DNA of 59,369 bases, from positions 1 to 59,369 of the forward strand of contig JAPLGP010000010.1 in NCBI GenBank assembly GCA_026390075.1. Direction: 5' to 3'. Below are positions 3,790-40,875 of the stretch, one piece after another (the first letter of the stretch is position 1; every line of letters starts with the position of its first letter). The position numbers were made by a program, and so were the translations under genes. Source of the stretch: Campylobacterales bacterium (GTDB lineage: Bacteria > Campylobacterota > Campylobacteria > Campylobacterales > Sulfurimonadaceae). A model generated the notes under the pieces. That model did no database searches, was not told the origin of the DNA, and worked only from the letters and a program-made list of their open reading frames with translations.

Positions 3790-5400
3790 ATGCCAAATAT
3801 CACAAACACTCCTGATAATAAAGATTGTCAAACTTGCTCACTTACATTTGCATACAATGAGATAAGCCTCCTTTATGACATAGCTGTAATGCTCTCTAGC
3901 ACAACAGATATTCGTGAAAGTATAGAAAAAGGGATGCGCATGCTTAAACGCAGTTCGTATCTTGACCGCTGTACACTTTTCATACTGAGTGACGATAAAA
4001 CAGAGCTTGAACTTTATGCCTCCATTGACCTGACTGCGCAACAGCGTAAAATGGCTATTTACAAACTAGGGGAAGGAGCAACAGGGCTTGCTGCAAAAAG
4101 TGCTGAACCTGTTGTTATAGAAAATATACATAACAATATCAACTATCTCAATAAAATGGGCACAGTAAATACAAAATCTATCTCTTATGTCGCTGTGCCT
4201 ATTATTCAAGATGATGAAGTTATAGCGGTTATTTCTGCAAATACCTGCAAATCTTCTGTTATGGATTTTGATGATGTTGTACGCATGCTAACAATTGTAG
4301 GCTCACTTTTTGGTGGAACACTCGCAACACAAAAGAAATTCGCCAAAGAAAAAGAGGATATTACAGAGTTAAAAACCTACTATAAAGAGCAGGCACTCAG
4401 TGAATATAACTTTGAAAGCATCATCGGAAGAAGTTCTAAAATGAGATTAGTTTTTAGTATGCTTGAAACAGTAGCGCCATCGGATGCAACCATACTCATT
4501 CGTGGAGAAACAGGCACTGGAAAAGAGCTTATTGCTACTGCTGTGCACAATCTAAGCAAACGAAAAAATGCACCATTTATCAAACTCAACTGTGCTGCAA
4601 TCAGTGAAACACTGCTTGAGAGTGAACTCTTTGGTCATGAAAAAGGTGCGTTTACAGATGCAAAAGAGGCTCGTAAAGGGCGTTTTGAACTAGCAGACGG
4701 AGGAACACTTTTTCTTGATGAGATTGGAGATATCACACCTTCTCTTCAAGTAAAACTCCTTCGTATCTTGCAAGAACAGGAATTTGAGCGAGTTGGTGGA
4801 AATAAAACTATTAAAACCAATGTCCGCCTTGTTGCTGCAACCAATAGAAACTTAGAAGAAATGGTTAAAAATGGAACTTTTAGAGAAGATTTGTTCTACC
4901 GTTTAAATGTTATTCCTGTCAATCTTCCACCACTCAGAGAGAGATATGAAGATGTAAAATTGCTTGTTGAGCATTACCTCCACAAGTTTATGCAAGAGCA
5001 TCGTAAGCAGATGACTTTTGCAAAATCAGCACTTGAAATACTGCTTGATTATCCATGGCCAGGAAACATTCGTGAACTGCAGAATACCATGGAGAGAATC
5101 GTTCTTATATGTCCAAATGGTACTATAGAACCAGATATGCTTAATCATGTTTTACCATTTAATTATCAAAAACTCCACATGCCAGTAGAGCCAACGCCGA
5201 TTTTGGAATCCGAAGTAACAACCGTTGTAACGCAACCAGCTCCAAGACTCACAAAAACAAGCCTCCTAGACATGGAAAAAGAGTCTATCATCCAAGCACT
5301 CATAGAACATCGTGGCATCCAAACAAAAGCTGCTACACAACTTGGTATGACAGCGCGTCAAATTGGGTATAAAATTCAGAAGTATGGGATTGAGTTTTAG
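3790..5400 (+). CDS. nifA: NifA, sigma-54-dependent activator of nitrogen fixation genes
   Basis: The 536-residue protein has an N-terminal GAF domain (about 25-175), an AAA+ domain (about 205-435) with Walker A GETGTGKE and Walker B LFLDEIGD, and a C-terminal Fis-type helix-turn-helix ending [12 protein letters not shown]. It uses ATP hydrolysis to open sigma-54 promoter complexes. The sigma-54 contact loop, normally GAFTGA, reads GAFTDA at residues 286-291. The linker before the DNA-binding domain lacks the CXXXXC cysteine pair of oxygen-sensitive NifA. The nif neighbourhood supports NifA over another GAF activator. A divergent rpoN is at 18419-19687. Confidence 0.88.
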
Positions 5401-8512: not shown

Positions 8513-8613
8513 AGACATCTTGCATAACCTAGATTGCTTCGTCATTCTTCCTTGGTACATGACCGTCATTGCGAACGAAATGAAGCAATCTAAAAATAGG
8601 TTATGCAAGAAGT
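8513..8613. repeat. Dispersed palindromic repeat
   Basis: Outer arms cttgcataaccta (8519-8531) and taggttatgcaag (8597-8609) are perfect inverted copies. The inside carries gattgcttcgtcattc and gaacgaaatgaagcaatc, the core of the dispersed repeat family in this window. Confidence 0.85.
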
Positions 8614-10266: not shown

Positions 10267-11380
10267 TTTTGCCTCCGAAGAGTTGTGTAAGATTTTGTTG
10301 TGGTGTATTTGGTATGTACGCCAACATCAGGTTATCTTCCACATGCCGAGGATTGACCGCACCAAACAAGGCACTCACGACATTTCCCATCCTTGCAAAC
10401 TGCAACGCACTTGCCACATCGTTTAACTCACTCGTGCCGAGAAGTTCGCCCACTCTCGCGTCAAACTTTCTTTGAAAAATATTTGCCTGAAGAAGCGAAG
10501 AGGACGCCATCATTTTTAGCCCATACCCTTGCACCATTTGCATGAGCGTGTAGTATTTTCCATCAGGTGCTTTTTGGTTTGAGAAGTTATACGCATCCGA
10601 TTTTGCGATGTTATAAGGTGACTGAATATACTTAAAGTGATGCTCTTTTCCGCCAACTTCCACTGCTATTTCGACCATATCTTTGAGTGAAAGATACTCT
10701 GTATGCGTCTCATCGTACAAAAATCCATTCCAACACGCTATCCCATAGTGGCGGATTTTGCCCTCTTTTACCAGTTTTTCAAAAAGTTCAAACGCTTTTT
10801 TGATTCGTTTTTTGAGTGTTTTATAGTCAATGTAGCCGAGTTGCATTTCAGGATTATGCAAAAACAGAATATCAATAGTTTTAAGTTGTAAGTTTTGAAG
10901 GCTCTGCTCCACACTCCAACGCAAATACGCAGGAGCGATACAATGTTGGTCAACAATAATGTCCTCTTTTGTCGCAAGTCCGCTACTTAAAACATTCTCT
11001 TCAATCCATTGGTAGGGATTTTCAGGAAACGGAAAATCAAGCGGTAAAAAACCCGCTTTTGAAGTGATGACGACCTGCTCTCTTGAAACTTTTTTCTCCT
11101 CAAAAAGCTCTTGAAGTGCCTCGCCAATTTCTCTCTCACTTATTTGGTAACGATAATTTATAGCGGTGTCAATAAGATTCATTCCATTTAAGAGTGCCAT
11201 TTTTACAGACTCTTTGTAATTCACAACATAATTCTCTTCACGGTAAGGCTCTTTGCGAAATGTACCAAGTCCAAGCGAAGAGACAAAAACATCGCCATCA
11301 AAACGATAAAAATCTTTGCTATATTTAGGAAACTGCTTTAAATAACCAAAAGTTCCCTCTTTGGTTGCGTAAGTTTTCAT
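10256..11380 (-). CDS. Aldo/keto reductase family oxidoreductase
   Basis: The product of about 374 residues has the aldo/keto reductase barrel motifs: LIDTAINYRY (catalytic Asp and Tyr region), VITSKAGF (Lys) and ILFLHNPE (His). These enzymes reduce carbonyls with NADPH; the substrate here cannot be told. The ATG at 11380 overlaps the nifU stop in TAATG, which argues for translational coupling; a start 33 codons further up would lie deep inside nifU and is rejected. It is followed with an 11-base overlap by the FAD oxidoreductase. Confidence 0.8.
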   Translation of the reverse strand: MKTYATKEGTFGYLKQFPKYSKDFYRFDGDVFVSSLGLGTFRKEPYREENYVVNYKESVKMALLNGMNLIDTAINYRYQISEREIGEALQELFEEKKVSREQVVITSKAGFLPLDFPFPENPYQWIEENVLSSGLATKEDIIVDQHCIAPAYLRWSVEQSLQNLQLKTIDILFLHNPEMQLGYIDYKTLKKRIKKAFELFEKLVKEGKIRHYGIACWNGFLYDETHTEYLSLKDMVEIAVEVGGKEHHFKYIQSPYNIAKSDAYNFSNQKAPDGKYYTLMQMVQGYGLKMMASSSLLQANIFQRKFDARVGELLGTSELNDVASALQFARMGNVVSALFGAVNPRHVEDNLMLAYIPNTPQQNLTQLFGGKNVV

Positions 11381-12351
11381 TATGTCACTATCACTTTTAA
11401 TGGTGCTTTGAGTTTGAACTTGAGCATATCTTCTATACCAGCAAGTGTTGTTGTTGTGTTCATCGAACAACTCATACATTCGCCCTGATATTTGATAAGA
11501 ACATCAAAAACTCCACCGTTGTCTTGAATATCCATAAGTTCCACATTCCCGCCATCGGCTTTGAGTGTCGGACGGATGTACTCTTCTAAAATAGATTCAA
11601 CCGCTTTAATTTTCTGTACAAGTCCCATCGAGAGGAATGTTCCATCTCCTTTTGCTTCAATGATTTTACGGCTTTTTTCTTCTGCTTCTTTTGCCTCTTT
11701 GACCTCTAAAAGCAAATCTACCAAATAAACATCTTTTCTCTCATGTCCCCCAGGTTTGATACACGATTTACAAAATCCACCTGCCTTGGTGTAGTCAATA
11801 ATCTCTTCAATCGTAGTTAATTTGTTCAGTTTTATCACTTCCATAAGTGTATCTTGAGAAACTCTAGCACACTCACAGATGATAAATTCACTCTCTAAAC
11901 TCTCCATGTCTACGCCTTTGTAGATGGAAGCTGCTTTTTTGATAACATCGTACGCCATAACAGAACAGTGCATTTTTTGCCCTGGAACTGCGGGAATATC
12001 TGGCTCATCTCTGAGAGCTTTTTCTACATCTATGTTTGTGATTTTAAGGGCTTCATCGACAGTTTTACTCATACAAAGTTCCGCCATCATGTCTGAAGAT
12101 GCTATGGCAGTGCCACAACCGAAACTTTTAAACTTACTACTTACAATCGTGTCAGTTTTTGGATCAATGAGCCAATACAATCGAACTGCATCCCCACAAC
12201 TCTCAGCACCAAAATCCGCGATAATCAGCTCATTATCGCCCTTTTGTGCCTCAGTTATTTCGCCCATATTGGTAGGTTCATTCATTCTTCTTTGTACTTC
12301 CAGTGAGTACTCTTCCCAAAGTGCACCACCGATTAAACTATCTCTTGCCAT
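11380..12351 (-). CDS. nifU: NifU, Fe-S cluster scaffold for nitrogenase
   Basis: The 323-residue protein has the full NifU layout: an IscU-like N-terminal domain with cysteines in AESCGD, FGCGTA and MHCSVMA; a central BFD-like [2Fe-2S] domain (CECARVS...GGFCKSC, about 135-185); and a C-terminal Nfu domain with ADGGNVELMDI and ECMSCSMNT. It assembles Fe-S clusters with sulfur from NifS and passes them to nitrogenase proteins. It heads the operon nifU-aldo/keto reductase-FAD oxidoreductase. A promoter element with AAGAAC lies at 12393-12408. Confidence 0.95.
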   Translation of the reverse strand: MARDSLIGGALWEEYSLEVQRRMNEPTNMGEITEAQKGDNELIIADFGAESCGDAVRLYWLIDPKTDTIVSSKFKSFGCGTAIASSDMMAELCMSKTVDEALKITNIDVEKALRDEPDIPAVPGQKMHCSVMAYDVIKKAASIYKGVDMESLESEFIICECARVSQDTLMEVIKLNKLTTIEEIIDYTKAGGFCKSCIKPGGHERKDVYLVDLLLEVKEAKEAEEKSRKIIEAKGDGTFLSMGLVQKIKAVESILEEYIRPTLKADGGNVELMDIQDNGGVFDVLIKYQGECMSCSMNTTTTLAGIEDMLKFKLKAPLKVIVT

Positions 12352-12392: not shown

Positions 12393-12408
12393 TGCAATTT
12401 TTGTTCTT
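12393..12408 (-). promoter_or_regulatory. Nif-type promoter element of nifU (AAGAAC-N5-TTGCA)
   Basis: On the minus strand AAGAAC, five bases and TTGCA lie about 42 bases upstream of the nifU ATG. It differs in one base from the TAGAAC-N5-WTGCA element shared by other nif genes here. Confidence 0.6.
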
Positions 12409-12439
12409 GTTGAAAAACTTTAAAGGATGTTATTGGAAT

Positions 12440-17613: not shown

Positions 17614-17769
17614 GTCTCTGGAAAGGCACTGCCATTAAGTTAAGCTATCTTTGGTTTTGGTGACGCTTACCTCATCGGCGGTGCAAATATGAATGAATTA
17701 GTTTCGCGCCAAGACGGCGGACATCAAAGTAAAAAAATAACTACAAATTTGTCACGCCAAACCATCTCC

Positions 17770-17785
17770 TAGAACAAAACTTGCA
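17770..17785 (+). promoter_or_regulatory. Nif-type promoter element of the PII gene
   Basis: TAGAAC-AAAAC-TTGCA is an exact match to the shared element. The -12 part ends 36 bases before the ATG, leaving room for a short leader with the AAAGGATT ribosome site. Confidence 0.7.
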
Positions 17786-17821: not shown

Positions 17822-18220
17822 ATGTACCAACTTACTGCAATATTTAACAAAATCTGTCTCAATGATGTCTTACATGACCTCAGCGAAAGAAAAATCGAAG
17901 GAATTACGGTTATCGATGTTTTTGGAAAAGGTGGCATAGGCTTCATCGAAGAGGGTGGAACTCCAGACCTTTACCCAAAAGTAAAAATAGAAATCATTCT
18001 CTCAAACGATGAATACAAAGAGAGTGCAAAAGAAGCAATTAGGGCTAATACGCAAGATTTAGGTCACGGAGCTGGGAAAATGTGGGTTACAAATATTCTT
18101 GAAGTAGAACGCATCCGAACAGGTGAAAAAAACGAAGCGGCACTTACGCAATCAAACATAAACAAAAATAAAAGTACAAATGAGAGCTACTTCACAATTA
18201 TAGATACACCAGCGAGTTAA
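17822..18220 (+). CDS. PII-family nitrogen regulator with shortened T-loop
   Basis: The 132-residue protein follows the PII fold: ITVIDVFGKG, PKVKIEIIL, a B-loop-like GHGAGKMWV and the C-loop RIRTGE. PII proteins sense ATP/ADP and 2-oxoglutarate and control nitrogen metabolism. Between the conserved strands the T-loop is about five residues shorter than in E. coli GlnB and has no counterpart of the uridylylated Tyr51. A polar tail of some 20 residues (NINKNKSTNESYF) extends past the usual end. It has its own nif-type promoter and so may work on nitrogenase or NifA directly. Confidence 0.8.
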   Translation: MYQLTAIFNKICLNDVLHDLSERKIEGITVIDVFGKGGIGFIEEGGTPDLYPKVKIEIILSNDEYKESAKEAIRANTQDLGHGAGKMWVTNILEVERIRTGEKNEAALTQSNINKNKSTNESYFTIIDTPAS

Positions 18221-18243: not shown

Positions 18244-18276
18244 TGGCATGTGGAAATTTAGAATTTCCACATGCCA
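18244..18276. terminator. Inverted CCACATGCC pair after the PII gene
   Basis: ctggcatgtggaaatttagaatttccacatgccaac forms a stem of about 14 bp with a short loop, 24 bases after the PII stop. It is placed as the PII terminator. Confidence 0.65.
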
Positions 18277-18311: not shown

Positions 18312-18418
18312 TAGACTTCTTACAAAACTCGTATTTTAGATTGCTTCGCTTTGCTCGCAATGACCGTCATGTGCCAAGGAGGAACGACGAAGCAATCTTA
18401 GTTCTGCAAGAAGTTTAA
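18312..18418. repeat. Dispersed palindromic repeat
   Basis: Begins agacttcttacaaaactc and ends gttctgcaagaagtttaat, with gattgcttcgctttgctcgc and gaggaacgacgaagcaatc inside. It abuts the rpoN stop codon. Confidence 0.85.
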
Positions 18419-19687
18419 TCAAAGCATTGTCAGTTTATAAAGAAATATTCTCTCTTTAAAAGATGGAATATCCAGCTCTTGCCGATATTTTGCAATGGAG
18501 CGGCGAACCATCTGCACCCCAAAACGCTCCTCAATTTTTTCATGCAGATACTTGTCGCTAAAGGGATTTTCTTTATCTTCACTTTGAACCAATCTTTGCA
18601 TAAAACTTTTAATCTCAGAGGTTGAAACATCGCCTATCGAGTTTGAAAAGAAGTCTTTAAATGCAAATACACCATGCTCACACTCTAAATATTTATCACT
18701 TATAGCTCTTGAAATAGTTGACTCGTTGAAACCAAGCTCATCCGCTACATCTTGAAGTCTAAGAGGTTTTAGTGCACCACCCATAAAAAATGTATATTGC
18801 TTTTCAATAAGAACTATCCCGATGTTATAGAGTGTCGCTTTACGCAAATCCAAAAGTTTAACAAGTTCCCTCGCCTCTTTGAACTTCTGCTTTGCGAAGT
18901 TGTCATATTTATCAATCTGGTGCACCATCAAATCAGGATAGAAATCGTGGTTTATTTTTATAATAAAATCACCCTCTTTAAACTCTATAAACATGTCTGG
19001 CAAAATCTGTTTTTCATCTTCCATATAGGCAATTGCAGGAGGATTTTTAAGATGTTTGAGCACCTCTTTTGCATCATGGATTCTCGGATGATTCATAAAC
19101 TTTTCAATCTTATCAAACTGGATAATGAGTGCGCTCATCAAGATGCTTAATTCATCATCAAGAGTATAATCATTTAACTGAAATAAAAACGATTCTTTAT
19201 AGTCCACTGCTCCAACACCTGAAGGCTCTAAATAAGCAAATCGTTGACGAATCTGCTCTACTTTGTGGGCATCCGTGCCTGTTTGTTGTGCGATTTCATT
19301 AATATCACCATCAAAATATCCCTCTTCATTGATGTACATAATGATTTGATGCGCTATCTTTTGTGAAATCGGTGTCGGAAAAAGCGGTGCAGAAATTTGA
19401 AAATCCAGTTTTTCATAGAGCGACTCGTTGGATACGCTCATCCACTCAATATCATCACTTGAACTATTTGAAACACGATTTTGTGACTCTAAGTATGCAA
19501 AGTGAGATTTCTCAGAAGAACCTTCAGAAACCTCAAAACCAGATTTAACCTCAAGACATGGGTTCTCATTTGTTATAACCTGTATATGCTTTTCCAAATC
19601 ACTTAACGAGCACTGTAATAATGGCAGCCAAGTCTGCATAGAAAGTCTTGGCAATTGTTTTTGTTTAAAATTAAAATTCTGTTTCAT
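18419..19687 (-). CDS. rpoN: RNA polymerase sigma-54 factor, divergent
   Basis: The 422-residue protein has the three parts of sigma-54: a glutamine-rich region I that binds activators (residues 1-45), a core-binding region, and a C-terminal DNA-binding part with a helix-turn-helix (LGFNESTISRAISDKYLECEHG near 308-330) and an RpoN box. The box reads VRRSIAKYRQ (394-403) instead of the near-invariant ARRTVAKYRE that reads the -24 element. It lies inside the nif region beside PII, separate from flagellar genes, so it may be a nif-dedicated second copy. The nif-type promoters here have TAGAAC in place of TGGCAC. Confidence 0.88.
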   Translation of the reverse strand: MKQNFNFKQKQLPRLSMQTWLPLLQCSLSDLEKHIQVITNENPCLEVKSGFEVSEGSSEKSHFAYLESQNRVSNSSSDDIEWMSVSNESLYEKLDFQISAPLFPTPISQKIAHQIIMYINEEGYFDGDINEIAQQTGTDAHKVEQIRQRFAYLEPSGVGAVDYKESFLFQLNDYTLDDELSILMSALIIQFDKIEKFMNHPRIHDAKEVLKHLKNPPAIAYMEDEKQILPDMFIEFKEGDFIIKINHDFYPDLMVHQIDKYDNFAKQKFKEARELVKLLDLRKATLYNIGIVLIEKQYTFFMGGALKPLRLQDVADELGFNESTISRAISDKYLECEHGVFAFKDFFSNSIGDVSTSEIKSFMQRLVQSEDKENPFSDKYLHEKIEERFGVQMVRRSIAKYRQELDIPSFKERIFLYKLTML

Positions 19688-20038
19688 CGTTTTGTCTTTT
19701 TAGTAAGTTATAAAATTATACTTTTTATTATTCTATTTAATATACACTATTTTGTTCTATTTTTATACAATAATACATTTTGCTCTATCAAATAAAAATT
19801 CTTATCCAATAGACTTCTTGCAAAACTCTCTTTTTAGATTGCTTCACTTCGTTCGCAATGACGGTCATTGCGAGGAGGAACGACGAAGCAATCTTAGATT
19901 TGCAGGAACCCTAATAAAAAATTTCAAGAAATACGGCATGTGGAAAATTTTAGTTCATTCACTTAGAGTTAAATAAAATAACTACTTTACTAAAAACAAA
20001 TATTTTGTTAAACTACACTTTTACAAAAAGGTTAAATT
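19688..20038. other. AT-rich gap upstream of rpoN
   Basis: Holds the AT-rich rpoN leader, one dispersed repeat (19811-19915), one CCACATGCC copy (19935-19943) and a TTTTGTTAAACTACACT promoter-like stretch before the AAA ATPase. No TAGAAC-N5-WTGCA element and no gene are seen. Confidence 0.5.
19811..19915. repeat. Dispersed palindromic repeat
   Basis: agacttcttgcaaaactc, then gattgcttcacttcgttcgc, a tgacggtcattgcg centre and gaggaacgacgaagcaatc. The centre is the site type into which the right-edge IS110 element seems to have inserted. Confidence 0.85.
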
Positions 20039-21405: not shown

Positions 21406-22836
21406 TCACGGAATAAGATAATGATAAATACTTAAATGTGTCCGTTTCAGTCCGCGTCTTGTGTAAAATTGAAGAGCATTTTCATTGTTGATATCTGCTG
21501 CGAGTTGAATGCGTTTATATCCATATTCCTGAGCTAAAGCGCGCATTTTGTTTATCAGACGACTCCCAACTCCCATTTTTCTGTACTCTTCTTTGACTAC
21601 CAAATCTTCAAGTTGCCCGATGAAACTCCCCTCAGCACTTGAAATTAATCTTTGCATCGTAAGCATTCCAACTACATGATTTTCATGTTTTGCAACAAGA
21701 AGATTACTTCCTTCGTACGAGAGAAGTTGCTTAAGTCCAGCATATTGTTTCTCAAAATCTATAGTAAAGTCAGATTCTATGGCAAATAAAACACCAAGTA
21801 ACTCCGCCATCTCTTTTAAATCTTCCTCTTTTGCTGTTTCTATGGTAATACCTGACTTCATATTTAAGTCACAAATCTCAGGATCTAAAATAGCTATAAC
21901 TTTTTTGGCATGTGGATTCAATGGATTTCCTTTGGCATAGAGTGTTTGGAGTGTTGCGATATTTGCAAGAGTATCGGGTAAATCTGTGATTTTATTTGCA
22001 TCAATATCGAGTTCTTGAAGTTGTGTATAACAACTTATTTCTTTTGGCACTTCCACAATAGAGTTTGATGAGTAACAAAGTACTTCAAGTGAAGCAGATG
22101 GAGGAAGTAAAAACTCTTCTAAACTACAACTATCACACGAAAATTCTTTTAATAAAGGTGCAAAATTCTTTGAAAAAGTCACTGATTTAAAAGGATTTTC
22201 ATCAAGGGTCAAAACTTCTAAACTCTCTAAAGTGTGAAGATGCAGAGAAACTAGCCTATTTGAGCTAAGATTTACATTTGTCACTTTCAATTTGAAAAAA
22301 GCTTCATCGATAGTTTTGAGACGATTGTCTATCATCTCTATCTCTTCTAAAGCAGTTAAAGAGCCGATAGAAGTTGGAATATTTTCTATAAGATTATTGT
22401 TTAGATTGACTCTCACAGCATTTGCTAAAGAGGGAAGGAAAGCTCCAATATCTTTTAAAAAATTACTTGAGAGATTTATACTTCTTAGTTCAGGCAAAAA
22501 AGAAAATTGTATCTCTTTGAGAGCGTTTGCACTTAAATCTAAGACTCGGATTTGCTGACATTTACTCAAAATAGAGACATCACTGAGTTTATTACCACTT
22601 GCATTTAAAAAACGAAGTGCTAAACTGCCCAAGACTTCTGGCAAAACTTCAAAGCTGTTTCTGCGAATATCTAAAATACTAAGATGCGAAAGAAGAGCAA
22701 AATTACTAGGAAGCGTTTTAAGAGAATTTCCACTCAAATCTATGCGTGTAATCTCCTCTGGTTTTGTAATGTTTTCATCAATCGCACCATATTGACCGAG
22801 CCAAGTTCTGAGTCTGTCCCATTCATAGTTATACAT
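21406..22836 (-). CDS. Leucine-rich repeat protein fused to a GNAT acetyltransferase
   Basis: Residues 1 to about 310 hold at least ten leucine-rich repeats (LxxLxxLxLxxN pattern, e.g. LTALEEIEMIDNRLKTIDEAF). From about 325 to 476 a GNAT domain follows (VVKEEYRKMGVGSRLINKMRALA, the acetyl-CoA loop, and INNENALQFYTRRGL). LRRs bind proteins and GNATs transfer acetyl groups, so a protein-modifying enzyme with its own binding domain is likely. The start overlaps the preceding gene in TAATG. The order nifB-nifV-small proteins-LRR/GNAT places it with nif genes. The target is not known. Confidence 0.82.
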   Translation of the reverse strand: MYNYEWDRLRTWLGQYGAIDENITKPEEITRIDLSGNSLKTLPSNFALLSHLSILDIRRNSFEVLPEVLGSLALRFLNASGNKLSDVSILSKCQQIRVLDLSANALKEIQFSFLPELRSINLSSNFLKDIGAFLPSLANAVRVNLNNNLIENIPTSIGSLTALEEIEMIDNRLKTIDEAFFKLKVTNVNLSSNRLVSLHLHTLESLEVLTLDENPFKSVTFSKNFAPLLKEFSCDSCSLEEFLLPPSASLEVLCYSSNSIVEVPKEISCYTQLQELDIDANKITDLPDTLANIATLQTLYAKGNPLNPHAKKVIAILDPEICDLNMKSGITIETAKEEDLKEMAELLGVLFAIESDFTIDFEKQYAGLKQLLSYEGSNLLVAKHENHVVGMLTMQRLISSAEGSFIGQLEDLVVKEEYRKMGVGSRLINKMRALAQEYGYKRIQLAADINNENALQFYTRRGLKRTHLSIYHYLIP

Positions 22837-23487: not shown

Positions 23488-24600
23488 TCAATAGACAAAC
23501 TCTCTATACATTTTCACAAGTTCAATGTTACTCAGCACCCGTTTACGCGAAGTGACAATCTCACGAATGAGTGGGAGCAAACCTTGGAGTGCGTTCTTTT
23601 CCGCATGAATACCAAGTTTTTTAAGATGGTACAAAATCGTCCCAGTTCCCGAGTGCTTTCCTATAGGAAATTCTCTAGCAGTTCCTACCTCTTCCGCACC
23701 AAATGGCTCATACGCAGAACCATTTTTCATCATTCCATCCGCATGGATACCACTCTCATGCGAAAAAATCCTCTCACCAATAATGGGAGCGGTTAAAGAG
23801 AGGCTCACACCCGCGGCTTCGGCAACTAACCGTGCGAGATTTTTCATCTCGTAAGTATCAATAGAACGATTTTGTCCATAAATATGTTTGAGCGCCATAG
23901 AAATCTGCTCAAACGAAGCATTCCCAGCTCTCTCGCCAAGCCCTATGACAGTTGTATTTACGCTCACAGCCCCAGCGTCAATTCCACTCAAAGCATTCGC
24001 ACTCGCAAGTCCAAAATCGTTATGCGTGTGCATCTCAATAGGAAGTAAATCCAGCGATACCAAGTCACTTACATTTTTGTAAGTTTTCGTAGGTGTGAGT
24101 ATGCCAACCGTGTCACAGTAACGAAATCTATCCGCTCCACATGCCACGCCTAAAGTCATAACCTCTTTCATAAATTCTAAAGAACCTCGTGAACTGTCTT
24201 CTCCGCCGATACAGACAAAAAGCCCTTCGCGTTTTGCTTCTATAATTACTCTCTCAAGTTCACGCAACATAAGAGTTTTATTACTGCCAAACTTCACATC
24301 TATGAGAATATCTGAGATGGGAATGGACAAATCCACCGCTTTGATTCCACATGCCAAAGAAGCTTCAAGGTCACTCATTTTTGCACGGTTCCAACTCATC
24401 ATGCGAGTGTTTAGACCGAGATTGAGAAGTTCTTTGATATCTTCTTGCTCTTTTTTTCCCATGGCAGGAATTCCGATTTCAAGTTCATCCGCTCCACATG
24501 CCACTAAATGTGAAGCGATTGCGAGTTTTTCCTTTGTGTTAAATGCCACAAAAGGAGCTTGTTCGCCATCACGGAGTGTTGTGTCGTTTATGAGTGCCAT
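23488..24600 (-). CDS. nifV: Homocitrate synthase NifV
   Basis: The 370-residue protein has the isopropylmalate/homocitrate synthase core: INDTTLRDGEQAPFVAF at the N-terminus, GADELEIGIPAMG, the metal-binding MHTHNDFGLASANAL and GERAGNASFEQ. NifV condenses acetyl-CoA and 2-oxoglutarate to homocitrate, the organic part of FeMo-cofactor. Its ATG is nine bases after the nifB stop, so they form one transcript. Length is typical. Three CCACATGCC copies lie in the gene (24137, 24347, 24494). Confidence 0.93.
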   Translation of the reverse strand: MALINDTTLRDGEQAPFVAFNTKEKLAIASHLVACGADELEIGIPAMGKKEQEDIKELLNLGLNTRMMSWNRAKMSDLEASLACGIKAVDLSIPISDILIDVKFGSNKTLMLRELERVIIEAKREGLFVCIGGEDSSRGSLEFMKEVMTLGVACGADRFRYCDTVGILTPTKTYKNVSDLVSLDLLPIEMHTHNDFGLASANALSGIDAGAVSVNTTVIGLGERAGNASFEQISMALKHIYGQNRSIDTYEMKNLARLVAEAAGVSLSLTAPIIGERIFSHESGIHADGMMKNGSAYEPFGAEEVGTAREFPIGKHSGTGTILYHLKKLGIHAEKNALQGLLPLIREIVTSRKRVLSNIELVKMYREFVY

Positions 24601-24609
24601 TTTTTACTC

Positions 24610-26058
24610 CTACGAAACCTTCAACAGCACCGAACTTTCCGTATCTGTCGCATGGATTTCACTCAGGTTAAAATACTTTCGTGTCGCTCTTAAAACAGAA
24701 ACTTCTATCGGCTGGTTTGCATAACTTTGGTCTGCAATAAGTCCAGCTTTAGCCAAATCATCTTGCGGACATCCTCCGATTTTCGCTGTTAAAATAAGCT
24801 TACAATCTTTGAGTTTTGCCAAAATCGGCTCCATAGGATTTGCTCCGTCTGGTCCTGCACAGTACTCATAATCGAGTTTACGGTGATGAATAAATCGTAT
24901 CCCTTTGTCTCCCGCTTCATAGATGAGAAATTCGCGAACTGCCCCGAAATGTTGGTTTATCATCCCCTCACCCGCCGTTGTCACTGCGACCAAAATCGTC
25001 TCGCCACTGCTACTGAGCTCTGCTTTTTCTTTTCTCACTCTTTCGTTTGCTTTGTCTAAAAAGAATCTAAACTCTTCGATTTTTGCCTGAGACTCTTGTC
25101 GTGCTTTGATGTTGTAATGGTCTTCTAAATCATCAAAACTCATAGAACTAAAAACATCTTTTGTAAACTCTTGTCCTCTGTCCTCACCGATAAGTCCAAC
25201 CGCATCTGCACGGCATTGACGACAATGTTGCATGAGTTTCATATCCATTCCACATGCCTCTTGCACTTCCATCTGTTGCTGATCTGTCGCACTTGGCACA
25301 CCGCCAAGTCCAAATGCAGTTCCATGCTCTGGCTCTGAGATAATCGGCATAATGTTATGTAAAAACACACCAATTTCTTTGAGCTTTTTAGAAACTTCTA
25401 CGAGATGTTTATCGTTTATTCCAGGAATTAAAACAGAGTTTGCTTTGATGAGAATCCCTTTTTCAACACATTTTTTCATCCCTTCAAGTTGACGCTCCAA
25501 AAGTATTTTTGAAGCCTCTTTTCCATAGATGCGTTTGTTGTTGTAAAAAATCCACGGGTAGATTTTTGAGCCGATGAAGCCTGTTTCATCGACGCTGTTG
25601 ATTGTCACAGTCACATGGTCAATGTTGTATTTTGCCATCTCATCGACAAATTTTGGAAGTTCCAAACCGTTTGTAGAGAGACAAAGTTTCAAATCCGATG
25701 CCTTCTCACGCACAAGTCGAAATGTCTCAAATGTTTTTTTAGGATTTGCCAAAGCATCACCAGGTCCCGCGATACCAAGAACGCTGAGTCTTTTTACCTC
25801 TCCGCCAACAAACATTACTTTTTTAGCCGCTTCTTCTGGGCTTAATCTCTCACTCGTAACCCCTGGGCGGCTCTCGTTAGAACAGTCATATTTACGGTTA
25901 CAATAGTTACATTGGATGTTACACGCTGGAGCAACAGCGACATGAATTCTCGCATAATGATGGTGTGCACCCTCCGAATAACAGGGATGATTGTGGATTT
26001 TCTCTTGAATATCCTGTGGCAGAAAAGACTCACTAGGATTGCTTGAACTACAGCTCAT
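24610..26058 (-). CDS. nifB: NifB, radical SAM FeMo-cofactor precursor synthase
   Basis: The 482-residue protein has the radical SAM cluster C46-x3-C50-x2-C53 (APACNIQCNYCNRK), the GPGDALANPKKT and GINDKHL segments, further cysteines CRQCRADAVG for the K clusters, and a C-terminal NifX/NafY-like domain (about 365-482; TTAGEGMINQHFGAVREF). It makes NifB-co, the iron-sulfur-carbide precursor of FeMo-co. It starts the operon nifB-nifV-(DUF683 and LRR genes). The nif-type promoter is at 26141-26156, with AAGGAGCTAAA as ribosome site. Confidence 0.96.
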   Translation of the reverse strand: MSCSSSNPSESFLPQDIQEKIHNHPCYSEGAHHHYARIHVAVAPACNIQCNYCNRKYDCSNESRPGVTSERLSPEEAAKKVMFVGGEVKRLSVLGIAGPGDALANPKKTFETFRLVREKASDLKLCLSTNGLELPKFVDEMAKYNIDHVTVTINSVDETGFIGSKIYPWIFYNNKRIYGKEASKILLERQLEGMKKCVEKGILIKANSVLIPGINDKHLVEVSKKLKEIGVFLHNIMPIISEPEHGTAFGLGGVPSATDQQQMEVQEACGMDMKLMQHCRQCRADAVGLIGEDRGQEFTKDVFSSMSFDDLEDHYNIKARQESQAKIEEFRFFLDKANERVRKEKAELSSSGETILVAVTTAGEGMINQHFGAVREFLIYEAGDKGIRFIHHRKLDYEYCAGPDGANPMEPILAKLKDCKLILTAKIGGCPQDDLAKAGLIADQSYANQPIEVSVLRATRKYFNLSEIHATDTESSVLLKVS

Positions 26059-26140: not shown

Positions 26141-26156
26141 TGCAAGAGTTGTTCTA
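26141..26156 (-). promoter_or_regulatory. Nif-type promoter element of nifB
   Basis: On the minus strand TAGAAC-AACTC-TTGCA, an exact match to the shared element, lies 83 bases upstream of the nifB ATG. Confidence 0.75.
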
Positions 26157-26235
26157 GCTCTTAGAAAGTATGTAAGTATGGATTATTTTTTATGATAAAA
26201 GAAGTTGAATTTGTAGTTTTTAAAACTAAGGGGGC

Positions 26236-33905: not shown

Positions 33906-35919
<2,014 letters not shown>

Positions 35920-35973
35920 ATAGTACAGAATGAAAATTGCATTTACATTAAAAATTGATACAAGGATTTCCAC

Positions 35974-36537
35974 ATGCCAAGAGTAAAAGAATTTATAAAA
36001 GAAAATAACCTGCAATGGCAACCAACCTATAATGACAAAACAGATAAGTACGCTTATGGTTACAGAGGAAGTCTTATAATTACTCCAGGTGCTGTACTCT
36101 CAGCCGATAAACAGCTTCCGCCAAAAGCTACAGCGAAGCAAACTATTTTAGTTACAAACAGCGACACTATAGACTTTTTAGCTTGTGAGCTTGAAACTCT
36201 CAACTTTTTTGAAGACTTTGTTACTCGCTATAAAGAAGTACTTTCACCTACTGGTCTTTATCTGCTTTTTGTGACCGACTTAGATATGAATGGGAAGTTT
36301 GAATATGAAGGGATTACTTTTAACGCATTCTCATTAGACGAGAGTTCAGTATGGAACGAACTTGTTGATTTTGCAGACCTTTCAAAAGGTGACCTTAAAA
36401 AATTATCTGAAGTAGAAAAAATAGACACAATCTATGATGAGATAAAATCTTCTAATCTTCGTATAAATAATAAAACCTATGAAGAGATAAAAGCAAAACA
36501 AAATGCAAAAGGAAAAGTACTTTTTGGAGCAGTTTAA
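35974..36537 (+). CDS. Hypothetical protein downstream of nifS
   Basis: The 187-residue protein has no family I recognise; it is soluble, with a mid-region YKEVLSPTGLYLLFVTDLDM and an acidic-basic C-terminus. Its ATG (35974) lies inside a copy of the CCACATGCCA motif, and the ribosome site AAGGATTT immediately precedes it. The gap of 54 bases to nifS suggests the same operon. Confidence 0.65.
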   Translation: MPRVKEFIKENNLQWQPTYNDKTDKYAYGYRGSLIITPGAVLSADKQLPPKATAKQTILVTNSDTIDFLACELETLNFFEDFVTRYKEVLSPTGLYLLFVTDLDMNGKFEYEGITFNAFSLDESSVWNELVDFADLSKGDLKKLSEVEKIDTIYDEIKSSNLRINNKTYEEIKAKQNAKGKVLFGAV

Positions 36538-38367: not shown

Positions 38368-38404
38368 TGGCATGTGGAAATATATACTTCTAATCCACAT
38401 GCCA
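38368..38404. terminator. Inverted CCACATGCC pair after the ferredoxin gene
   Basis: ttggcatgtgga and tccacatgccaa are inverted, with a 14-base loop. It lies 23 bases past the minus-strand ferredoxin stop (38427), as a likely terminator of that operon. Confidence 0.6.
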
Positions 38405-39189: not shown

Positions 39190-39576
39190 CTAAAGAGCTA
39201 CGGTTGCGCGTGAATCACGCAAATCCATGCCAATATTTTCCATAAACGGTTGCGCTTTCACCGATGGCAACATCAAACCTTTTGACTTATGTTCACGGAT
39301 TTTATAAGTACCATTTTCATGACCCGCCACAAAATACTCTTCAAACTCAGTTGTATAAGGCATATCCCAGACTATCGAACCCTCAGTCGGACAAACCGCC
39401 GCACAACGAGGTGCATCAGCATGACCAACACATTCAACACAAGTTTCAGCTTTTACATAAAAGCGCTCATCGGCATGTGGGTTTTTCTCATCATCATTAC
39501 TAAGTATCGCCGCTACTGGACACTCAGGCGCACAATCCCCACAGTTTATACATAAGTCAGTTATCATTACAGCCAT
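39190..39576 (-). CDS. Nif-type 2[4Fe-4S] ferredoxin, copy 1
   Basis: The 128-residue ferredoxin has CINCGDCAPECP and CVECVGHADAPRCAAVCP plus a tail of about 45 residues. It is similar to copy 2 at 38427. It leads the operon; the promoter element is at 39609-39624 and AAGGAGAAAAAA is the ribosome site. Confidence 0.9.
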   Translation of the reverse strand: MAVMITDLCINCGDCAPECPVAAILSNDDEKNPHADERFYVKAETCVECVGHADAPRCAAVCPTEGSIVWDMPYTTEFEEYFVAGHENGTYKIREHKSKGLMLPSVKAQPFMENIGMDLRDSRATVAL

Positions 39577-39608: not shown

Positions 39609-39624
39609 TGCATCTTTTGTTCTA
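39609..39624 (-). promoter_or_regulatory. Nif-type promoter element of the ferredoxin-nifX operon
   Basis: On the minus strand TAGAAC-AAAAG-ATGCA, an exact match 33 bases upstream of the ATG at 39576. Confidence 0.75.
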
Positions 39625-39775
39625 TAGATTTCTTGCAAAACTCAGATTGCTTCGTCGTTCCTCCTTGGCACATGACCATCTTCCCCTTGGCGCATGACCG
39701 TCGTTCTTCCTTGGCACATGACAGTCATTGCGAACGAAGTGAAGCAATCTTATGAGAGAGTTTTGCAAGAAGTCT
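39625..39775. repeat. Long dispersed palindromic repeat
   Basis: Arms agatttcttgcaaaactc and gagttttgcaagaagtct enclose three similar ttcttccttggcacatgacc-type units and the core gattgcttcgtcgttcc / gaacgaagtgaagcaatc. It is the longest copy of the family here. Confidence 0.85.
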
Positions 39776-39791: not shown

Positions 39792-40268
39792 TTACATCAA
39801 ATAAAGTACGACATTTTTGTCAATCATTGTTTCAAAATGTTTCAGTAACATGTCCGCAGTGGAAGTAGAACCAAGTTGACAACCCGAACAATTTCCTAAG
39901 TAATTCAGCCAAATCTGTGGTGTTTTTCCACCTACATAATTTATAAGTTCGATTCCACCTCCATCACCTGCAAGAGTCGGACGAATTTTAGTTGTTATCA
40001 TATTTTCAACCAAAACACGCTGTTTGTCTCTATCTAAATCATGAAAAGCACTATTTTTTGATGACTCTATAGATGAATTACTGACATAAGTTATAAGTGC
40101 TTGTGCTTGAGCGTTATTGTTGTGTGCCGCGGCAATCAGATAACGCATAGCCTCAGCCACTTTACCCTCTTGTCTATAGAGTAATCCAGTTTTAAGTTGT
40201 GCTTCCACATGCCCATTATCTGCGGCTTGTTTGCTAATTTCTAATGCTTGTTCGTATGTTTGGCTCAT
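39792..40268 (-). CDS. Sel1-like repeat protein fused to a NifU C-terminal domain
   Basis: The 158-residue protein has Sel1/TPR-like helices (about 1-65; AADNGHVEAQLKTGLLYRQ) and a C-terminal Nfu domain (about 80-158; IRPTLAGDGGGIELINY, GNCSGCQLGSTST) with CxxC for an Fe-S cluster. It may deliver clusters to nif proteins bound through the Sel1 part. It has its own nif-type promoter at 40298-40313 and faces a divergent gene. Confidence 0.78.
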   Translation of the reverse strand: MSQTYEQALEISKQAADNGHVEAQLKTGLLYRQEGKVAEAMRYLIAAAHNNNAQAQALITYVSNSSIESSKNSAFHDLDRDKQRVLVENMITTKIRPTLAGDGGGIELINYVGGKTPQIWLNYLGNCSGCQLGSTSTADMLLKHFETMIDKNVVLYLM

Positions 40269-40297: not shown

Positions 40298-40313
40298 TGC
40301 ATCTTTTGTTCTA
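40298..40313 (-). promoter_or_regulatory. Nif-type promoter element of the Sel1-NifU gene
   Basis: On the minus strand TAGAAC-AAAAG-ATGCA, 30 bases upstream of the ATG at 40268. It shares the two bases of its -24 end with the element on the plus strand. Confidence 0.75.
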
Positions 40314-40327
40314 GAACTAGAATTGCA
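40312..40327 (+). promoter_or_regulatory. Nif-type promoter element of the 40369 gene
   Basis: TAGAAC-TAGAA-TTGCA, exact match. The two facing elements form the palindrome GTTCTAGAAC. Confidence 0.7.
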
Positions 40328-40368
40328 TGATGAAACAAAATTTGCTTAACTAAAAAATGGAGAAAGAA

Positions 40369-40875
40369 ATGGATTTTGAACTAACAAAAAAAGAGTTACT
40401 TAAACATGCAAGAAATGCTTTTGAGATGGCTTGTACATTGCGTAATTCCCAAAGAATTGAAGTTTATTTAGAAAATGGCGAAGCAAAAAGTTCCGATATT
40501 CTTGAAGAAAATGAAGAGATACTTTATACTCCACAAAAAATATTGTGTTACGCCATTAACGGATATGATTACCTTGAAGATGAGATTAAAACATGGATTG
40601 ATTATGCCAGAGTTTTGCCTCAACAAACGGATAAAATACCATTAGCAGAGCCAACAAATGTTGAAAAATCTATCAGAGAACTCCTCACTGACATTGCTAA
40701 ACGAAACAATATGAGCCAAGAGGAAGTGAATTCTTATGAAGTTTTTGCAAATCTTCCGATGGATTTACTTGGAACGATTGAACAGCAGATTATCGAGTAT
40801 TGGTGGAGTGCAGAGGAAGAGGAAAACGGCAAAAAATTGGCTCTTTTGCAGATTGAAGAAGCACTTGTTATTTGA
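40369..40875 (+). CDS. Hypothetical protein with nif-type promoter
   Basis: The 168-residue acidic protein (MDFELTKKELLKHARNAFEM, later NPMDLLGTIEQQIIEYWW-like) has no family I recognise. The ATG at 40369 is preceded by GGAGAAAG, better than the ATG at 40357. The promoter at 40312 and the divergent Sel1-NifU gene make a nif-linked role likely. No cysteine cluster is present. Confidence 0.65.
   Translation: MDFELTKKELLKHARNAFEMACTLRNSQRIEVYLENGEAKSSDILEENEEILYTPQKILCYAINGYDYLEDEIKTWIDYARVLPQQTDKIPLAEPTNVEKSIRELLTDIAKRNNMSQEEVNSYEVFANLPMDLLGTIEQQIIEYWWSAEEEENGKKLALLQIEEALVI

Follow-up and report, generated by a model that had tools for sequence, protein, structure and literature searches.

A probable nif-dedicated sigma-54 paralogue with a putatively insulated promoter code beside the flagellar sigma-54 of a Sulfurimonas-like bacterium

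An rpoN gene lying close to a PII gene in a nif cluster raises the question of whether a bacterium can keep one sigma-54 for nitrogen fixation apart from the one serving its flagella, and whether the two read different promoters. The gene lies in the window analysed here, a 59,369-nucleotide stretch of a Campylobacterales genome (contig JAPLGP010000010.1). Sigma-54 promoters are usually recognised by GG and GC dinucleotides that are treated as almost invariant. A sequence-only reading of the window had proposed that the -24 element of its nif promoters is altered and that a second sigma-54 copy with a changed RpoN box has co-evolved with this element, keeping nif separate from flagellar sigma-54 genes, with a single RpoN carrying such a box as the fallback. 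Structures described in passages of PMC7057263 and PMC6028918 have the RpoN box meeting the -24 element and the helix-turn-helix meeting the -12 element.

The ORF encoding the window RpoN is intact, and its matches to the AID (4e-8), CBD (9e-33) and DBD (4e-44) domains all exceed the Pfam cut-off, placing the protein in the sigma-54 family, with the PII-like gene nearby as described (Table 1). Five of the ten named records whose RpoNs are most similar carry the label Sulfurimonas, at 79-94% identity. The RpoN box retains RR and KYR (RRSIAKYR), with S in place of the usual T. The box sequence VRRSIAKYRQ, which had been set against ARRTVAKYRE, is real; measured against the box of the other RpoN of the same genome (VRRTIAKYRK, locus L001), only two changes stand, T to S and K to Q, the V and I being normal for the lineage and accounting for the rest of the difference. 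Alignment of the boxes revealed a consistent distinction. Residue 397 is S in 27 and V in 11 of the 38 window-type RpoNs aligned, all of which have Q-E at 403-404; of the 50 other RpoNs, 49 have T at 397 and 45 have K at 403. We use type A as a label for this window-type nif-linked RpoN; the type A RpoN of G072, a genome fetched after the alignment, has L at position 397.

Table 1. Features of the window, with candidate nif-type sigma-54 promoters and the basis of each assignment.
Feature	Coordinates	Strand	Basis
rpoN, nif-linked sigma-54 (type A), 422 aa	18419..19687	-	three Pfam domains; tree clades
RpoN box VRRSIAKYRQE codons, residues 394-404	18476..18508	-	translation; 38/38 type A rows
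Helix-turn-helix codons, residues 308-335	18683..18766	-	translation; -12 role as described in passages of PMC7057263
PII-like nitrogen regulator	17822..18220	+	PF00543, E 4e-17
NifA-like enhancer-binding activator (GAF, Sigma54_activat, HTH_8)	3790..5400	+	Pfam
nifU	11380..12351	-	Pfam NifU_N and NifU
nifB	24610..26058	-	Pfam Radical_SAM and Nitro_FeMo-Co
nifV-like homocitrate synthase	23488..24600	-	Pfam HMGL-like and HCS_D2
nifS-like cysteine desulfurase	34738..35919	+	Pfam Aminotran_5
Candidate promoter CTAGAACAAAACTTGCA of PII gene	17769..17785	+	motif search, strict pattern
Candidate promoter CAAGAACAAAAATTGCA of nifU	12393..12409	-	motif search, strict pattern
Candidate promoter CTAGAACAACTCTTGCA of nifB (then nifV)	26141..26157	-	motif search, strict pattern
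Candidate promoter CTAGAACAAAAGATGCA of ORF 39792-40268	40298..40314	-	strict pattern
Near-match CTAGAACTAGAATTGCA of ORF 40357-40875	40311..40327	+	one base off strict pattern
Near-match ATAGAACAAAAGATGCA of ferredoxin-like ORF 39190-39576	39609..39625	-	without C at -27
Near-match ACAGAATGAAAATTGCA of ORF 35974-36537	35925..35941	+	without C at -27

The second copy that had been postulated exists: the same genome holds one further sigma-54, on contig C29 adjoining an ABC ATPase and ~42% identical, and with two rpoN genes present the fallback of a single RpoN fails. The wider distribution of the window type was followed in a family sample of 200 genomes, with genome sets compiled by hand from match lists; 171 of the genomes match the sigma-54 DNA-binding domain and 181 match FlgE/F/G. 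A match to the nifD family TIGR01282 is present in 75 of the 200, 66 of these passing the cut-off and the others being nifE-like or partial. Nif-linked rpoN genes were assigned by identity to type A (at least 72%; 59 genomes, the copy of G097 being partial) or to a second type, type B (46-48%; 8 genomes). All 67 carriers have a nifD-family match, which is below the cut-off in six (G046, G098, G100, G116, G119 and G135), and no carrier lacks one, tying the window copy to nif across the family and leaving the second paralogue absent where nif is absent. Neither a nif-type rpoN nor a nifD match is present in 125 genomes, and eight genomes with completeness of 57 to 92% (G015, G023, G092, G102, G110, G118, G128 and G134) have a nifD match with no nif-type rpoN listed.

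Flagellar genes sort with the other copy. Among the 19 genomes without a FlgE/F/G match, seven have nifD and exactly one rpoN, of type A, and the remaining 12 have neither nifD nor rpoN matches. A nif-type rpoN occurs in 60 flagellated genomes, 56 of which have at least two rpoN matches; in the other four (G056, G071, G085 and G090), which have one match only, a search with the flagellar copy of the present genome as query found no second rpoN. It is not unusual for drafts to lack genes, 13 of the 181 flagellated genomes having no rpoN match whatever, and an assembly gap is the likely, though unproven, cause of the single rpoN in G071, G085 and G090, because their flagellar loci retain TGG..TGCT sites. 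Five genomes lacking a nifD-family match (G009, G115, G129, G145 and G162) also show extra rpoN matches.

A midpoint-rooted tree of 88 RpoNs, built without the G097, G174 and nif-linked G354 copies, splits flagellar from nif-linked copies at support 100/99, with type A forming a clade at 100/100 on a long stem (0.70) and type B at 100/98; the base and branching of the type A clade are poorly supported. The comparison was widened to a phylum sample of 38 genomes hand-picked from 298, with nifD in 27 and FlgE/F/G in 33. Three of its families, f10, f7 and f4, we take to be Sulfurospirillum-like, Arcobacter-like and Sulfurovum-like, respectively. Sulfurospirillum-like genomes have two rpoN matches in 13/13 cases with nifD and one in 4/4 without; one match is found in 8/8 Arcobacter-like genomes with nifD and flagella and in 5/5 Sulfurovum-like genomes with nifD and without flagella, and G354, presumably Wolinella or Wolinella-like, has two. 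There are two RpoN paralogue clades, each co-occurring with its own gene set.

Upstream regions of nifH, nifE, nifB, nifU and the PII gene were searched by expectation-maximisation, with the regions and a motif width as the only inputs. In 20 type A genomes with a second rpoN, the motif tCtaGAAcA-N3/4-tTGCA was recovered in 58 of 59 regions, the sole miss being nifE of G164, whose region was truncated where the retrieved sequence ended. The log-likelihood was 495.8 over 12 restarts, versus 70.6-77.5 in six dinucleotide shuffles, and a pattern scan picked the same 58 sites. These nif promoters take the form C(-27)-N-A/C(-25)-G(-24), ending GCA, with A at -11 in the 58 sites. They depart from the standard GG/GC promoter in one half: under the pattern used, GC and the -24 G are present in 58/58 and the -25 G in 1/58, the -25 base being A in 41, C in 16, T in none and G only at the PII gene of G008. 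That one site excepted, the absence of the -25 G spans the promoters of five genes and six genera; because related genomes do not supply independent sites, the counts are best taken by gene and genus, and P-values that take no account of relatedness are given no weight. As a promoter feature, the missing G limits the standard code and not the membership of the protein in the sigma-54 family.

Within the window, the strict pattern occurs at four sites versus 0.15 expected from shuffling, which together with the log-likelihood bears out the altered -24 element of its nif promoters. Genome-wide there are 12 matches, versus none for the reversed control pattern. Six precede nif-cluster genes by 30-84 bp (nifH, nifE, nifU, nifB, the PII gene and ORF 39792-40268); five others lie inside genes, one of these also being 192 bp before another ORF, and the last, on a 2.1-kb piece, has no gene in range. 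The site of ORF 39792-40268 and the near-match of ORF 40357-40875 form a divergent pair. The last batch of nine genomes was fetched after the -25 rule had been formed, and its two-rpoN genomes gave 8/8 sites without the -25 G and with C at -27 (three in G005 and one each in G046, G062, G072, G119 and G135); in the same batch, nifH of G005 gave no site, G165 had no usable region and G354 contributed its rpoN only.

Flagellar promoters were sought upstream of fliK and flgE2 with a pattern leaving -25 and -11 free. The 37 regions yielded 32 sites, all TGG..GCT, with G at -25 and T at -11 in 32/32; one extra GCA match, far upstream in G183, was set aside as chance. The -24 elements of the two gene sets therefore differ, as had been anticipated (-25 not G in 57/58 nif sites vs TGG in 32/32), and so does the -11 base, A for nif and T for flagella. 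Distinct promoter sequences mark the two gene sets. The base at -27 adds a further mark, C being present at 71/83 type A sites (50/58 with a flagellar RpoN, 21/25 without) and at 0/50 other nif sites and 0/32 flagellar sites; the -27 and -25 counts exclude the uncertain genomes G071, G085 and G090. These differences at -27, -25 and -11 fall within the sigma-54 element itself, and together with the separate gene set that accompanies each paralogue they make it very unlikely that the two sigma-54s are redundant, both serving both regulons with promoter differences confined to activator sites, even though Sulfurospirillum-like genomes do carry two RpoNs without recoding at -24 or -12. The best reading of these promoter sequences is that two regulons are kept separate, much as the sequence-only reading would have it.

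The classic NifA enhancer TGT-N10-ACA was not enriched in the 20 two-RpoN type A genomes (5/59, ~4 expected). It was above expectation in flagella-less type A genomes (6/26, ~1.4 expected) and occurred at 3/11 in Sulfurospirillum-like genomes (~1 expected), with few elsewhere; the activator site may differ between two-RpoN and flagella-less type A genomes.

Relatives that live without flagella bear on what the type A box requires. In six type A genomes lacking flagella and a second rpoN (G007, G010, G025, G027, G044 and G045), 26 regions yielded 25 sites, of which 17/25 have G at -25, versus 1/58 where the flagellar RpoN is present. The -25 base is G in 15/15 sites of G010, G027 and G044, which belong to one genus, G in 2/5 of the mixed G025, and A at the one site of G007 (G in 0/1). 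G045, which has type A only, shows A in 4/4 with C at -27 in 1/4, the motif search having picked a different string at its nifE. Flagella-less G036, from the last batch and with an RpoN almost identical to that of G027, has G at -25 and C at -27 in 5/5, bringing the -25 G to 20/20 in four genomes of one genus; the box is unchanged in all four despite their GG nif promoters. Passages of PMC12029903 describe uptake of 15N2 by both the non-motile Sulfurimonas diazotrophicus and the motile S. microaerophilic.

Among the less certain genomes, G056, with flagellar genes and no flagellar rpoN found, has G at -25 in 2/4 and C at -27 in 1/4, and G071, G085 and G090, which are flagellated and in which type A was the one rpoN found, gave seven sites in eight regions (A 4, C 2 and T 1 at -25, the one T being in G090; C at -27 in 4/7). 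The Sulfurovum-labelled locus L012, from a genome with one rpoN match, combines GG at nifE and nifU with AG at the promoter of a tpx-like gene.

A strict lock and key, in which the type A box demands A or C at -25, would fit the S/V397, Q403 and E404 shared by 38/38 type A rows and the A or C found at 57/58 sites with both RpoNs present. We consider it improbable, because the same box stands beside a -25 G in 20/20 sites of G010, G027, G044 and G036 and so does not demand A or C. Moreover, G323 has S at 397 yet an ordinary GG nifH promoter, and two flagellar-clade RpoNs of Sulfurospirillum-like genomes have Q at position 403, so that neither change alone predicts the promoter and single box residues were rejected as the cause. 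The proposed co-evolution of box and promoter thus survives in part: a box demanding an altered -24 element does not hold, and C at -27 and tolerance at -25 do accompany the box. Of the two promoter bases, C at -27 appears to accompany the type A box more constantly, with the -25 base seemingly varying with the company that the RpoN keeps.

Drift offers a somewhat stronger competitor, though we still regard it as doubtful. Here type A would simply have stopped reading -25, and the GG of flagella-less lineages would be ancestral retention, an account compatible with A at -25 in G045 and G007 despite their lack of flagella, with the single T in G090 and with the weakly settled base of the type A tree; since that branching is not settled, the GG of the G010 group may be ancestral and not regained. 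AT-rich DNA should then give T about as often as A, yet T is found at 0/58 sites, and the -25 G is missing across five genes and six genera, one site excepted, versus present in 17/25 sites without a flagellar RpoN. The near absence of T favours instead a type A RpoN that would accept A, C or G at -25, with G removed where a GG-reading sigma-54 resides in the same cell.

Taken together, we consider it likely that the window RpoN is a nif-dedicated sigma-54 paralogue with an insulated promoter code, in a Sulfurimonas-like bacterium that also has a flagellar sigma-54. Type A RpoN, with the NifA-like activator, would start transcription at C(-27)-N-A/C(-25)-G(-24)-AA[C/T]-N5-[T/A]TGC-A(-11), while the flagellar sigma-54 would read T-G-G-AA[C/T]-N5-TGC-T(-11). 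We infer that the -24 reading of type A has shifted, gaining C at -27 and making the -25 G optional, and that this shift goes with the changed box and neighbouring DNA-binding residues. Beside a flagellar sigma-54, selection would have removed the -25 G, blocking that factor from reading nif promoters, and the -11 difference may form a second layer, at a position reported for RpoN1 and RpoN2 of Cereibacter sphaeroides.

Other nif-linked RpoNs broaden the picture. Type B nifH and nifE promoters keep GG in 13/13 and end in TGT, not TGC; the type B pattern scan gave sites in 11/24 regions, its nifE pick in G059 being wrong by comparison with the motif search, and found none in two nifH regions and in all nifU and PII regions. 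GG with GT was noted at type B loci L120, L122, L124, L176, L177, L206 and L208. The same GT occurs in 2/2 sites of G352, which belongs to another family and has its second rpoN on contig C6. A changed helix-turn-helix was rejected as the cause of the type B GT, since the type B helix-turn-helix is nearly identical to that of G363, yet the G363 nifH promoter has GC. In the Sulfurovum-like and Arcobacter-like genomes with a single RpoN, 31 regions searched gave GC in 23/25 and GG in 24/25 sites. In six Sulfurospirillum-like genomes, which carry two RpoNs, both GG and GC are retained at 11/11 nif sites, with A at -11 in nif and T in 2/2 flagellar sites; company does not, therefore, always bring recoding. 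Whether, over the phylum as a whole, an old nif sigma-54 has been insulated from flagellar sigma-54 by two separate promoter recodings, one in type A (-25 G lost, C at -27) and one in type B and G352 (GC to GT), we judge to be about evenly balanced.

Several further features of the window deserve mention. The activator is presumably NifA, judging from its domain order, and the cysteine desulfurase presumably nifS, judging from its position. ORF 21406-22836 encodes leucine-rich repeats fused to an acetyltransferase (GNAT) domain. The 9-mer CCACATGCC (extended form TTTCCACATGCCAA) has 44 copies in the 59 kb versus 0.09 expected, for example at 18245-18275, 24137-24502 and 38369-38403, some forming inverted pairs and 27/44 lying within listed ORFs (coding fraction 0.85). 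It is similarly dense in five further pieces of the same genome and is found in 6/20 relatives' loci (L005, L009, L010, L013, L143 and L150) and in none of the other 14; the 9-mer resembles a DNA uptake sequence. Another repeat has the inverted arms GAAGCAATCT (12 arms versus 0.29 expected), with copies at 8531-8591, 18338-18398, 19836-19894 and 39644-39750, one being upstream of rpoN and another upstream of the ferredoxin-like ORF.

A nif-dedicated sigma-54 is itself already known. In Cereibacter (Rhodobacter) sphaeroides, separate paralogues serve the two functions, RpoN1 nif and RpoN2 flagella, and passages of PMC11999139 attribute their specificity to the -11 position together with the activator. 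The base at this position differs here as well, with A in nif and T in flagellar promoters; unlike C. sphaeroides, the present system has lost the hallmark -25 G and gained C at -27, and it belongs to another phylum and spans many genera. A second rpoN within the nif operon of Wolinella succinogenes was noted in 2011, according to passages of PMC3372290. G354 fits that arrangement, with an rpoN at C1:1323809 beside nif, and unlike type A its nifH promoter keeps GG and GC and its nif-linked box reads RRTIGKYREQ. Compared with canonical sigma-54 (the RpoN chains of the PDB), type A shares the domains and the RRxxxKYR box, and differs in its S/V-I-A-K-Y-R-Q-E box and, at its promoters, in a dispensable -25 G and C at -27. 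For recoding of the -24 element for a nif sigma-54, and for promoter recoding at -25 and -27, we found no earlier report in the open-licence papers searched.

Because GG and GC are treated as near-invariant, genome scans requiring GG would miss type A nif promoters. If two recodings did take place, both would have arisen where two sigma-54s share a cell, most lone nif RpoNs keeping GG and GC; the sigma-54s and their promoters would then form naturally orthogonal pairs, and the loss of flagella would be a natural experiment relaxing the insulation. With opposite halves of the element changed in two lineages and flagella-less relatives as controls, the separation of codes between paralogous sigma factors would become testable, and the type A and type B systems may supply ready-made orthogonal sigma-54 pairs.
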